From Ruegeria sp. R13_0 (GTDB lineage: Bacteria; Pseudomonadota; Alphaproteobacteria; Rhodobacterales; Rhodobacteraceae): 64,000 nt of DNA. Under the pieces are notes generated by a model, which was given only the letters and a program-made list of their open reading frames with translations, was not told the DNA's origin and did not search any database. Each line of letters begins with the position of its first letter. Within the stretch, counting starts at the first letter, position 1. Location of the stretch: NCBI RefSeq assembly GCF_017743995.1, contig NZ_JAGHRB010000004.1, positions 186,001-250,000 of the forward strand. The letters run 5' to 3'. Shown in pieces: positions 44,559-48,206 of this stretch. The position numbers were made by a program, and so were the translations under genes.

Positions 44559-45434
44559 ATGTACGTTGCCACCTTGCTCACAAATCCCACCACGCCCTCG
44601 CTTGAGGTCCCGATGGTGGACGCGCTGCGAAATGCGTGGGGCGGGGGCGAGGTCACGTGGCTAAACCCTGGTGAGGCGGCCGAGTTCACGCTGCCCGAGA
44701 TGCCAGACAATCGTTGGGACGTCTGGGCCGATCTGCAAGAGATGGGCGTTGATCTGGTCGTTCAGCCATCCGAGGGGCGGCGCAAAAAAATGCTGCTGGC
44801 GGATATGGACAGCACCATGATCCAGCAGGAATGCATTGATGAGTTGGCGGATGAGGCGGGTGTTGGTGAGCGCGTCAAAGACATCACCGCCCGCGCGATG
44901 AATGGTGAACTGGACTTCGAAGGCGCGCTGATCGAACGGGTCGGCCTGTTGAAAGGTCTGGACGAGGCGGTCATTGACCATGTTCTGAACACGCGGATCA
45001 CCTTCATGCCCGGCGGGCGCGCGTTGGTGGCGACCATGCGCACGGCTGGCGGCTATGCGGCCTTGGTCTCGGGCGGGTTCACAGCGTTTACAGCCCGTGT
45101 GGCGGCGCAGTTAGGTTTCGATGAGAACCGGGCGAACACACTGTTGACCGAGAATGGGCAGCTAACGGGCGATGTGCAGCGCCCGATCCTCGGGCGGCAG
45201 GCCAAGGTTGAATCGCTGGAGCGGATCACCGCAACGCTTGGATTGTCCGAGGGCGACGTGATCGCGGTTGGCGACGGAGCCAACGATCTGGGCATGCTGG
45301 GGCGGGCCGGAACCGGCGTTGCACTGCACGCAAAGCCCTCGGTCGCAGCTAGTTGCGACGTGCGGATCAACCACGGAGACCTGACGGCCCTGCTTTACAT
45401 TCAAGGCTACAGCAAGGCTGACTTCAGCGTCTAG
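44559..45434 (+). CDS. serB: Phosphoserine phosphatase
   Basis: 291 residues. HAD-family phosphatase with the nucleophile motif DMDST, motif II VSGGFTAFT and motif IV GDGANDLGML; an N-terminal domain of about 80 residues precedes it. Catalyses the last step of serine synthesis. CCGGAG precedes ATG 44559. Its stop shares the tetranucleotide CTAG with the stop of the convergent caspase-like gene. Together with serC-serA it completes the pathway within 6 kb. Confidence 0.92.
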   Translation: MYVATLLTNPTTPSLEVPMVDALRNAWGGGEVTWLNPGEAAEFTLPEMPDNRWDVWADLQEMGVDLVVQPSEGRRKKMLLADMDSTMIQQECIDELADEAGVGERVKDITARAMNGELDFEGALIERVGLLKGLDEAVIDHVLNTRITFMPGGRALVATMRTAGGYAALVSGGFTAFTARVAAQLGFDENRANTLLTENGQLTGDVQRPILGRQAKVESLERITATLGLSEGDVIAVGDGANDLGMLGRAGTGVALHAKPSVAASCDVRINHGDLTALLYIQGYSKADFSV

Positions 45435-47734
45435 AACAAGTCAAAGCGCACCGGGTTCTGCGCCCAGTACACACGCGCGGCCAGCAACAACCGGGCCTTT
45501 GGATCGCTGGCGGCGGCATAGGGAACCGGAACACCGAACTTGGCGCTGATATTTTCCAGCGCTGTCAGGGTCGCCGGGCCGACCTGCCCGTCGACAGTGA
45601 CGTCTTCCCCAAGTTCATTCAGCGCGAGTTGTAAAGCCCGATCCAGATCCCCACGCGAGAGGCTGTCGAGCTGCGATTGAGCCTGCGCGGCGGGTTCCTC
45701 GTTCGGCAGCAGGGCCGCTTTGGCTGCCCTGAGCGCTGCGTCAGCCGGACCTTTGCCCGGTACCTGGCCGTCCAGGATGATATAGGCTCCGTTCGCGCCG
45801 CCCCAGGCATCACCGCGTTCCAGAGATGTATCGTACCAGGCCAAGGCTTCGGTGCGGGGCCGGCCTTTCAACTGATCCCGCAGGATCATGCGGGCGATAC
45901 TGGCCGGAGCAGTAGGGTGCCCGCCTTGGGCGGCCGCCAGAAAGTAGGCTTCGGCTTTGTCGAAATCGACCGGATTGCCGCCCAGCCCATTCAGAGAGAC
46001 ATAGGCCAGATTGTCGTATCCATAGATATCCTGCCGCAATTCGGACGCGCGCAAATATCGCAACCCACGTTCGGGGATATAGTGGTCCGAACTTTCAAGC
46101 AGGAAATACAGGCCCAGCTCATTCATTGAATAGGTATGGCCAAGCTCGACGGAGCGCTCCAACAGCTCGAAACCGCGCCTTTTCTCTTCGGTTGTTTCGC
46201 CGTTGCGTAGAAGCTGTTGACCCAGCCGGTGCATGGCATAGGGGTCTTGCTCGGCTGTGGCTTCCTCCAGCAGGGCGCGTGCTTTTTCCGGGTCAAAGGG
46301 GGTCTTGGTGACCGCGCGGTCGATGCGTTTTGTCTCAAGCAAGGTTGCCAGTGCGTATTTGGCGCGAATATGCCCGCCGTCAACAGCACTCGTGAAACTT
46401 TCAAAGGCGCTTGGCACATTGCCTGCAGCTTGTTGCAAACGGCCCAGTTGATACTGGAACCGCGCGTTTCCCGGATAGTCCTCGACCGCTTGTGAACAGG
46501 CGGCCAGGCCATTGGTGATATCCAGTTCATTCGGCAGGCGGAACACGCCAACGCCATTAAGATCCAGCGCGTCCCCCGCTTCGAGATCGCAGGCGTTCAT
46601 CCCCAATTCCAGAGAGACCTCAACCGTCTGTCGCGTCTGATCAGCGGTTACAACTTCGACCGCAAAGGTGTCGGCGAAATCGGTTTTAGGCAGGTCGACG
46701 GCACGCGTGTCCGTGATCTCGGGCGTATAGGTTAGAGATGTGTCGCTGGCGCTGACAGCACCCCGGTCAGGGGTTTCCGTCACCCGCACATCTACGATAT
46801 CCCGCCCCAGCGCTTGGCTCAAGCTTTGGGAGAGCGGGACGGATTTATCGAACTGATAGCTGAGCGAGAGGGATTGGGGGGCACCATCCTGCAGCGCCTC
46901 GGGTTCAACCTCGACCTTTTGCTGCGCCAGATAGAACGGGCGCACCAGTGTCGAGCTTTCCCAAGGGATCTGCTGCCCCGAAGTCTTGGTGTGAACCCTC
47001 TCGCGAATGACTGGAAAGAGCTGTTGGATATTCTCAAACGGAGAGGATTGGGCGGTTTCCAGAACGGCCGCCGTATATGGGCTGTTGTGGCCGATTTCGC
47101 CATCACTGGCCACCGCACCTGGCGAGGTAGAATACGCGATCAAAGAGTTCAGTGGCGTCTTGAACACGTCAAACCCTTCGCGGGTTTCAAAAAGGTTCGC
47201 GTCCAGATCCGCCGCTAATCTGAGGTCTTGAAACGGATTGTCCCTGCACGAGTCCAGAATGGCCACATGGGCCGCGCTACGGGCGGACAGGGTGTCAATC
47301 ACGCGATCCAGCGTCATCGTTGCCAGTGGCACATCATAGACGCTTTCAAACTTGGCATCCACGGGAAGCAAATAGTTTCGCCGCCCGATCTGAATGCCGT
47401 GACCCGCATAGTAGAACAGAACATCTGCGGAATCCGGGATGTTCAGAACCGCTGTGCGGATCAGCTCTTCAAACTCGCGTTTGGTCAGGTCATAGCCGTC
47501 GAAAACTTGGAAATCGAAGTCCCGCAGCATGTCCGCGATGTCTTCGGCGTCTTTTCTGGCATTGGTCAGGTCGCCAACGCTCGTGTAGTCCTGATTGCCG
47601 ATGACGATTGCAACCCTGCTGTTGGCGCTGGTTGCCGACGTGGACTGCGCGCTGAGGCCGCTGGCGCAAATCGTCAAGATAGAAGCTGCTGCCAGTAGAT
47701 GCCGTCGACCTGTTTCAAACCCAAGATTTAGCAT
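45431..47734 (-). CDS. Secreted caspase-like (C14) protein with Sel1-like repeats and a peptidoglycan-binding-like tail
   Basis: 767 residues. Signal peptide 1-30, then a caspase/metacaspase fold (about 38-270) with an intact dyad: H112 in YYAGHGIQIG and C163 in ILDSCRDNPF. A beta-rich middle follows, then Sel1/TPR-like repeats (about 430-650; YQLGRLQQAAGN, YAMHRLGQQLL, YSMNELGLYF). The end resembles a peptidoglycan-binding helix bundle (LALNELGEDVTVDGQVGPAT). Such export suggests a periplasmic protease. It begins 17 bases after a glycine-tailed lipoprotein gene in the same direction. Substrates unknown. Confidence 0.8.
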   Translation of the reverse strand: MLNLGFETGRRHLLAAASILTICASGLSAQSTSATSANSRVAIVIGNQDYTSVGDLTNARKDAEDIADMLRDFDFQVFDGYDLTKREFEELIRTAVLNIPDSADVLFYYAGHGIQIGRRNYLLPVDAKFESVYDVPLATMTLDRVIDTLSARSAAHVAILDSCRDNPFQDLRLAADLDANLFETREGFDVFKTPLNSLIAYSTSPGAVASDGEIGHNSPYTAAVLETAQSSPFENIQQLFPVIRERVHTKTSGQQIPWESSTLVRPFYLAQQKVEVEPEALQDGAPQSLSLSYQFDKSVPLSQSLSQALGRDIVDVRVTETPDRGAVSASDTSLTYTPEITDTRAVDLPKTDFADTFAVEVVTADQTRQTVEVSLELGMNACDLEAGDALDLNGVGVFRLPNELDITNGLAACSQAVEDYPGNARFQYQLGRLQQAAGNVPSAFESFTSAVDGGHIRAKYALATLLETKRIDRAVTKTPFDPEKARALLEEATAEQDPYAMHRLGQQLLRNGETTEEKRRGFELLERSVELGHTYSMNELGLYFLLESSDHYIPERGLRYLRASELRQDIYGYDNLAYVSLNGLGGNPVDFDKAEAYFLAAAQGGHPTAPASIARMILRDQLKGRPRTEALAWYDTSLERGDAWGGANGAYIILDGQVPGKGPADAALRAAKAALLPNEEPAAQAQSQLDSLSRGDLDRALQLALNELGEDVTVDGQVGPATLTALENISAKFGVPVPYAAASDPKARLLLAARVYWAQNPVRFDLF

Positions 47735-47751
47735 CTGGTGTCTTTCCCGGC

Positions 47752-48054
47752 TTAACCGCCGCTCCAGCCACCGCCACCGCCGCCGCCGGCTCCACCGCCG
47801 CCGCCGCCACCACCGCCGCCGTCGCTTTCACGCTCATAAGCTTTTTTCGGGGCCGGTTCGGGTTTGCTTTCAGGGGCTGCCGCCGCAGTTGTGGTCGCAG
47901 GCGCGGGAGTTGCCGCTACCGCCGCCGCCGCAGGGGTGGGTTGAGGGGCGGTTTCCGCTGGGGTGACAGTCTCTGTCTGTGACCAAGGGGTCGAAGAACA
48001 GCCTGCGACAACAAGGGTACAGGCGATAAACAATGAAGTGGACGCGAAGCGCAT
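47752..48054 (-). CDS. Small lipoprotein with Ala/Pro-rich stalk and poly-glycine tail
   Basis: 100 residues. Lipoprotein signal with lipobox LVVAGC (Cys about 19), then a low-complexity stalk of Ala, Pro and Thr (TPAAAAVAATPAPATTTAAA), a short charged patch KKAYERESD and a tail of 22 residues that is almost all glycine with one Ala and a WSGG end. AGGAGG fixes ATG 48054. It is upstream of, and probably cotranscribed with, the caspase-like gene. I do not recognise a defined family. Confidence 0.75.
   Translation of the reverse strand: MRFASTSLFIACTLVVAGCSSTPWSQTETVTPAETAPQPTPAAAAVAATPAPATTTAAAAPESKPEPAPKKAYERESDGGGGGGGGGGAGGGGGGGWSGG
47755..47820 (-). repeat. GGN-codon repeat encoding the poly-glycine tail
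   Basis: 66 bases of nearly uninterrupted glycine codons, seen on the plus strand as GCC/ACC triplets. Such tracts are prone to slippage, so tail length may vary between strains. Confidence 0.8.
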
Positions 48055-48206
48055 CTCAAGCCTCCTAAAATAAAACAACTTACTAAACTCACACATAACA
48101 CCATGCCTTGTGTCTTTGGAGCAGGTCTATGAACCTTTTCACACATACACCAAAAGAAGGCGCGCGGCCAATTTTCCGAAGTGGCGCTGACAAAAGGTAG
48201 GCTTTC

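Follow-up and report, generated by a model that had tools for sequence, protein, structure and literature searches.

A gene for an exported-looking caspase homolog and a gene for a small lipoprotein with a Gly-rich, Trp-tipped tail form a conserved pair, beyond what chance would produce. We describe the pair from a stretch of 64,000 nucleotides of Ruegeria sp. R13_0 (assembly GCF_017743995.1, contig NZ_JAGHRB010000004.1, positions 186,001 to 250,000), here called the window, whose first letter is position 1 of all coordinates below. Both genes are on the minus strand: the lipoprotein gene (an open reading frame [ORF] of 100 amino acids; 47752..48054, stop codon included) lies upstream, and a spacer of 17 bp (47735..47751) separates its stop from the start of the caspase gene (767 amino acids, from the ORF and orthologs; 45431..47734, stop codon included). 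An earlier note on this DNA had left it to a co-occurrence survey whether the two genes are linked elsewhere; a Gly-tail, Trp-tipped lipoprotein gene adjoins the caspase gene, on either side, in all 55 family loci that were judged. With a partner and a tip that are both constant, the function of exported bacterial caspase homologs becomes directly approachable by experiment.

Linkage of the two genes

The lipoprotein gene lies upstream of the caspase gene in 31 of the loci, all from Rhodobacterales, including one (L069) whose contig holds only the last residues of the lipoprotein. In the other 24, it lies downstream: Roseibium, Labrenzia, and Stappia (4), Chelatococcus (1), an Amaricoccus metagenome-assembled genome (MAG) (1), and Rhizobium or Neorhizobium (18). 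Thirteen of the 18 rhizobial loci were fetched via the lipoprotein; its annotated neighbor is a caspase or peptidase in 12 of them, and at the unannotated one, L196, a caspase match adjoins the lipoprotein. Six rows were removed before counting, namely, L080 (identical to L066), L149 (99.6% to L011), L205 (the same place as L083), and, for the reasons given below, L044, L084, and L094.

We compared family loci with controls using a fixed rule for the tail, under which a frame must end in Gly, Ser, or Thr followed by Trp and zero to three residues, or run into S-D/E-x-R-L-K, with at least eight Gly or Ser among the last 22 residues. The rule recovered a tail for 53 of the 55 loci in the family, missing L069, where the contig begins within the tail, and L074, where the frame is broken. 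Outside the family, two sets of loci served as controls: 2 of 32 satisfied the rule in the first and 4 of 57 in the second, which consisted of C14 loci drawn from the best 80 of 584 matches; on reading, all six proved to be spurious frames that lack a Gly-rich tail. In the 32-locus set, 4 loci gave no GHG ORF, L025 is unlikely to be a caspase, and L028 duplicates L001. The pattern GGGGGWx-stop, which is blind to the caspase and strict enough to miss most known pairs, matched 16 times in 394 genomes of the bacterial family and 4 times when reversed. Two of the 16 matches read as lipoproteins, and both directly precede a C14 gene of this caspase family; one of them revealed a family member missed by the earlier ortholog search.

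The two genes are also absent together. At the serB locus, the pair is present in 2 of 24 Ruegeria genomes, and in 18 of the 22 genomes that lack it there, an ArsR-like ORF starts 25 to 59 bp past serB; thus, both genes are jointly missing from that site. One of the 22 (G014) has the pair elsewhere.

The Trp tip and the caspase-fold protein

In the window, the lipoprotein begins with a signal peptide and the lipobox V-A-G-C19 (up to Cys19, 47998..48054), assigned by eye, as were all signal peptides and lipoboxes in this work. A stalk of Ala, Pro, and Thr leads to the Gly-rich tail (residues 79 to 100, 47755..47820), GGGGGGGGGGAGGGGGGGWSGG, which ends in GGGWSGG. The earlier note had described a lipoprotein with a 22-residue glycine tail; lipobox, stalk, and length hold, although 19 of the 22 residues are Gly and the tail is not wholly glycine. 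It had missed the constant Trp at the tail end, here Trp97 (47764..47766), and, for some rhizobia, the prediction that a self-cleaving domain generates this end. The sequence AGGAGG (48061..48066, by eye), 6 bases ahead of the ATG, probably serves the lipoprotein gene as its ribosome-binding site; a promoter scan found none (shuffled-sequence mean, 0.7).

Trp followed by zero to three residues closes all 55 partner tails, while the remainder of the tail varies. In most partners Gly precedes the Trp, whereas many have Ser there and one has Thr; tail length ranges from about 9 to more than 70 residues (one Ser-rich tail scores 5 by the same rule), and composition ranges from pure Gly to Ser-rich. 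The script that collected the tails filtered on Trp at some loci, where the same genes had been listed earlier without this filter, by adjacency or Gly content. Three partners (L043, L045, which ends in GGGWG, and L046) have a PG_binding_1 domain inside the stalk, which fits a location at the wall. In its mature form, the partner is probably a flexible chain that is anchored by lipid and whose (G/S)-W tip is free. A Gly-rich C terminus of another kind, glycine-zipper-like and unlike the Trp tip, occurs in Bradyrhizobium caspases themselves (L100, L103, L108, L111, and L114), which end in ..GGVVGGMMGGMFRR.

The rhizobial partners bear on whether the tip has to be free. The rhizobial lipoprotein occurs in 89 plasmid records; 13 of these were examined, in addition to R. 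etli and R. johnstonii 3841. Nine of 18 rhizobial partners stop at Trp or one residue later, and the other nine continue past the tail into SDRRLK and a Peptidase_S74-like domain; this even split is not a frequency, because both forms were chosen on purpose. In the nine long partners, SDRRLK begins zero to two residues after the tip Trp, and all nine have a Ser/Lys dyad with +5 spacing. According to two reports, S74-type domains cut just before Ser, with Lys five residues on, as in MyRF (S587/K592) and endoNF (S911/K916) (PMC8326128, PMC3828593); the same spacing likens the rhizobial domain to the endosialidase/MyRF intramolecular chaperone autocleavage domain, from which it differs in being carried by a low-complexity, lipid-anchored tail with a caspase as neighbor. 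Self-cleavage, which is thus predicted for some rhizobial partners, would leave ..GGGWN, ..GGWDG, ..GGW, ..GGWDS, ..PGWG, ..GGTSW, and ..DPGW, whereas partners without the domain end in ..GPSW, ..GGQSW, ..GQGW, ..GGTSW, and ..GTWH. The main reason to think that a free Trp end matters is that predicted self-cleavage and a plain stop yield the same tip; these sequences strongly suggest that it has to be a free C terminus.

The S74-like domain was absent from the 37 non-rhizobial partners examined and from the source genome, where the window lipoprotein has neither this domain nor any Pfam match. An exact pattern for coding like G-x-W-S-D-(R/S)-(R/S)-L-K gave no match in 385 genomes of the class, which is weak evidence, since few rhizobia were drawn. 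The S74-bearing partner had no sequence match in the PDB. On the Rhizobium plasmids L192, L194, L195, L197, L198, L201, and L205, a gene annotated in the isoprenylcysteine carboxyl methyltransferase family follows the lipoprotein gene; none was seen beside annotated non-rhizobial pairs.

The earlier note had the caspase protein right in coordinates and content: an exported-looking C14 protein with H112/C163, Sel1-like repeats, and a peptidoglycan-binding-like end. All its features lie on the minus strand. A signal peptide of about 30 residues (..ICASGLSAQ; 47645..47734) precedes the C14 catalytic domain (residues 40 to 268; 46931..47617), placed by Pfam, alignment, and an AlphaFold2 (AF2) model. 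After it come a beta-rich domain (about residues 280 to 380; 46595..46897; from AF2 secondary structure), a helical TPR/Sel1-like solenoid (about 381 to 675; 45710..46594), and a peptidoglycan-binding-like module (about 694 to 732; 45539..45655), the last two placed by Pfam and AF2. The conserved C terminus is RFDLF (45434..45448), with R-x-D-L-F/Y in most family members. Pfam matched Peptidase_C14 over residues 40 to 268 (E value, 6.8e-36; 124.5 bits against a cutoff of 21.4), Sel1 in two stretches (30.9 bits; cutoff, 30.7), and PG_binding_3 over residues 700 to 729 (27.0 bits; cutoff, 24.6). The His-Cys dyad H112/C163 is intact, and D62, H112, and C163 are invariant across 16 aligned family members. 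Both gene products of the pair look exported.

The AF2 model of the caspase (predicted local distance difference test [pLDDT], 89.3; predicted template modeling score [pTM], 0.88) is closest to MALT1, which is also the nearest solved caspase by sequence (6.8e-11). For the fold, Foldseek gave 1.1e-12 and VIA gave a Z score of 26.7 with 2.7 Å over 220 residues, the next-best caspase match having a Z score of 23.8. Structural alignments barely reach the beta-rich domain after C14, where a MALT1-like paracaspase would have an Ig domain. D62 aligns with a MALT1 Asp that we take to be the S1 residue D365; cleavage after Arg or Lys is therefore predicted, as for a paracaspase-type protease. The window protein resembles MALT1 (PDB 3uo8 and 3v4o) in sequence, fold, and this aligned Asp and differs from it in its TPR/Sel1 repeats, peptidoglycan-binding module, and apparent export. 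MALT1 is a cytosolic human protein under the control of Ig domains and BCL10 filaments.

The lipoprotein as a proposed tethered ligand and competing explanations

We lean toward reading the pair as a module of the envelope, with the lipoprotein as putative membrane tether and ligand of a MALT1-like protease that it would hold or switch. The first gene would yield a lipid-anchored, mostly unstructured protein, with a lipidated Cys, a stalk, a tail of Gly, Ser, and Asp, and a free tip of Gly or Ser, Trp, and zero to three residues; the second would yield an exported caspase-fold protease with a beta domain, a TPR/Sel1 solenoid, and a peptidoglycan-binding-like module. The Trp tip, on its flexible line, would dock on the protease, most likely in the groove of the TPR/Sel1 solenoid, and the docked lipoprotein would hold or switch the protease at the cell wall, perhaps upon envelope damage. 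The rhizobial S74-like domain would be expected to cut itself off at the tip. Docking on the caspase, its regulation, and the response to damage are steps that we infer. A more specific proposal is tentative, and we hold it to be possible rather than probable: the free C-terminal Trp of the lipid-anchored Gly line may act as tethered ligand for an envelope paracaspase, forming a switch stationed at the cell wall, with a self-cleaving S74 chaperone in some rhizobia unmasking the tip only after assembly. If the tip is indeed a tethered ligand, it would represent a new way of controlling a caspase-fold protease outside the cytoplasm. Of the periplasmic two-component system suggested in the earlier note, the conserved pairing and the exported look of both products are borne out, while its interaction part is still a proposal.

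Several observations weigh against this reading. The conserved positions of the solenoid coincide with the structural ones of Sel1/TPR repeats and prove no binding site. Two of the nine long rhizobial partners were scanned with Pfam for Peptidase_S74, giving 26.1 bits for L082 and 19.0 bits for L150 against a cutoff of 22, and the AF2 model of the S74-bearing partner reached a pLDDT of just 35. The partner at L196 ends in TWH, and at L074, from the Amaricoccus MAG, lipobox and tail are in different frames. As to linkage, the 32-locus control had flanks of just 1.5 kb, which put downstream neighbors partly out of view, and L044, at a contig edge, could not be judged and was left out of the 55. 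The caspases L084 and L094, both from MAGs, are partially similar over the same regions and have no such partner; they were not counted as family members, since they stand apart both in the tree and in their C termini. The module is also patchy: at an E value of ≤1e-100, 13 of the 394 genomes from the bacterial family, the source genome included, have the caspase, as does 1 of 385 across the class. Its spread beyond Rhodobacterales rests on plasmid records and named genomes, including the best 80 of 584 matches, because that one class-wide match was the source genome alone.

The lipoprotein could instead be a substrate, cut by the caspase after an Arg or Lys near the start of the tail, so that the Gly-Trp tail is freed from the membrane as a signal or building block. 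The basic P1 preference predicted from D62 fits the Arg that often stands just before the tail. Among 27 of the 36 listed partners (four were unparsed, and stalks of fewer than 20 residues were dropped), 16 have an Arg no farther than 12 residues from the tail, against a mean of 11.5 after shuffling, a count reached by 67 of 2000 shuffles; Lys or Arg is near the tail in 19 of the 27, against a mean of 15.7 (140 of 2000 shuffles). However, the excess of Arg is weak among partners that are themselves related, and the tail boundary was set by a crude rule; moreover, the mature partners L040 and L041 contain no Lys or Arg, yet they retain the Trp tip. We consider a substrate role unlikely. Still less probable, in our judgment, is a surface fiber or adhesin, in which the tails would form a trimeric polyglycine bundle, aided in rhizobia by the S74-like chaperone, and the caspase would process it, clear it, or simply be coexpressed. 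Polyglycine bundles occur in phage adhesins, and phrog_6121, a family of phage structural proteins, is matched by the rhizobial domain of L082 (3.5e-20). Trimeric fibers of phages are served by domains of the S74 type (PMC8326128, PMC3828593). Against such a fiber, several tails are short, with 9 to 15 residues (L048, L049, L072, L073, and L075 to L078), some are Ser-rich, most partners lack an S74 domain, and it is the tip that is conserved, not the tail length.

Runs of Gly codons expand easily, and the cassette occurs in varied surroundings, on large plasmids as well as other contigs, as would be expected if the genes were linked but independent, with a mobile cassette kept by transfer only and Gly tails arising as slippage products. 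This we regard as very improbable, given that the Trp tip stays constant while the remainder drifts, that linkage persists through switches of gene order across two bacterial orders, and that no other gene regularly accompanies the pair. We also considered an anti-phage defense system. The window caspase resembles the caspase model of PADLOC, for anti-phage and cell-death systems, by weak C14 similarity alone (5e-06), and the lipoprotein had no PADLOC match; no defense-like genes were seen in the neighborhoods, which were read by eye. We dropped the defense reading because the weak domain match stood alone and such neighbors were lacking; in addition, unlike caspase defense systems, the product looks exported rather than cytoplasmic.

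Exported bacterial caspases have been predicted previously. A 2012 survey of bacterial caspase homologs reports likely signal peptides, Sel1 repeats, and peptidoglycan-binding domains, as well as metacaspases in operons, some with OmpA domains (Asplund-Samuelsson 2012, PMC3501461). The statement in the earlier note that an envelope caspase is little described was therefore too strong as far as sequence surveys are concerned. The window protein is like the orthocaspases of that survey in its C14 fold, His-Cys dyad, likely export, and classes of accessory domains; its operon section describes no Gly-tail lipoprotein partner, which here is constant and Trp tipped. The word lipoprotein does not occur in the available parts of PMC6426788 and PMC5756287, and those of PMC2275737 and PMC5758756 have no bearing on a caspase-lipoprotein pairing. 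We found no account of a caspase paired with a Gly-tail lipoprotein in the open-licence literature, subscription journals lying outside the search, and within that literature the pairing with a Trp-tipped lipoprotein appears to be new.

Distribution and surroundings of the pair

Full-length orthologs of the caspase were found in 4 of 61 genomes, all of one genus, Ruegeria. Carriers of the pair include Paracoccus denitrificans PD1222 and Rhizobium etli CFN 42, and both large plasmids and other contigs harbor it, in differing surroundings. Across 36 neighborhoods, no gene family other than the caspase recurred in more than seven, apart from one ORF family, present in 27 of the 36, that we take to be an antisense shadow of the caspase; ORFs of fewer than 110 amino acids were below the limit of this count, which hence excluded most lipoproteins. 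The pair thus appears to be a self-contained two-gene module that moves between genomes. In a tree of 49 caspases, the tail-bearing ones fall into two well-supported groups side by side, one of Rhodobacterales (32 rows; support, 99/100) and one of rhizobia, Chelatococcus, and Stappiaceae (10 rows; support, 96/94). L090, a long-branch row without a partner, stands beside the tail-bearing groups in an unsure placement.

A larger operon was considered and rejected, since none of its candidate members, the ExbB/ExbD/DUF4384 genes of R. conchae, the second caspase of Stappiaceae, or the rhizobial methyltransferase, is general across the neighborhoods. On the Ruegeria conchae plasmid (L149:414-3259), the pair is immediately preceded by genes for ExbB, two ExbD, and a DUF4384 protein. 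The Roseibium, Labrenzia, and Stappia loci have a second caspase gene after the lipoprotein gene: at L085:3830-10538, L086, L088, and L095, the order is caspase, Trp-tipped lipoprotein, and second caspase (C14 with a weak DUF4384 match), followed at L085 by an exported-looking protein and a CHASE2-like protein (by eye). Just past the Trp-tipped lipoprotein gene of Chelatococcus (L087:7013-8767), a further exported-looking caspase gene lies on the opposite strand.

The partner gene is easily overlooked in annotation. It is missing from the incomplete gene table of P. denitrificans PD1222 (L148:4321-4908), and in R. johnstonii 3841 (L205:1691-2041), an opposite-strand gene is annotated where it sits. 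The source genome has seven C14 genes altogether. At its own paralog (L001/L028, G000:C55:184337-188095), as at L012, L013, and L029 to L031, a different recurring protein precedes the caspase, mostly about 20 bp upstream; it ends in ..IGL(S/T)RAIGL, and several of its members have GLVGEN-type repeats.

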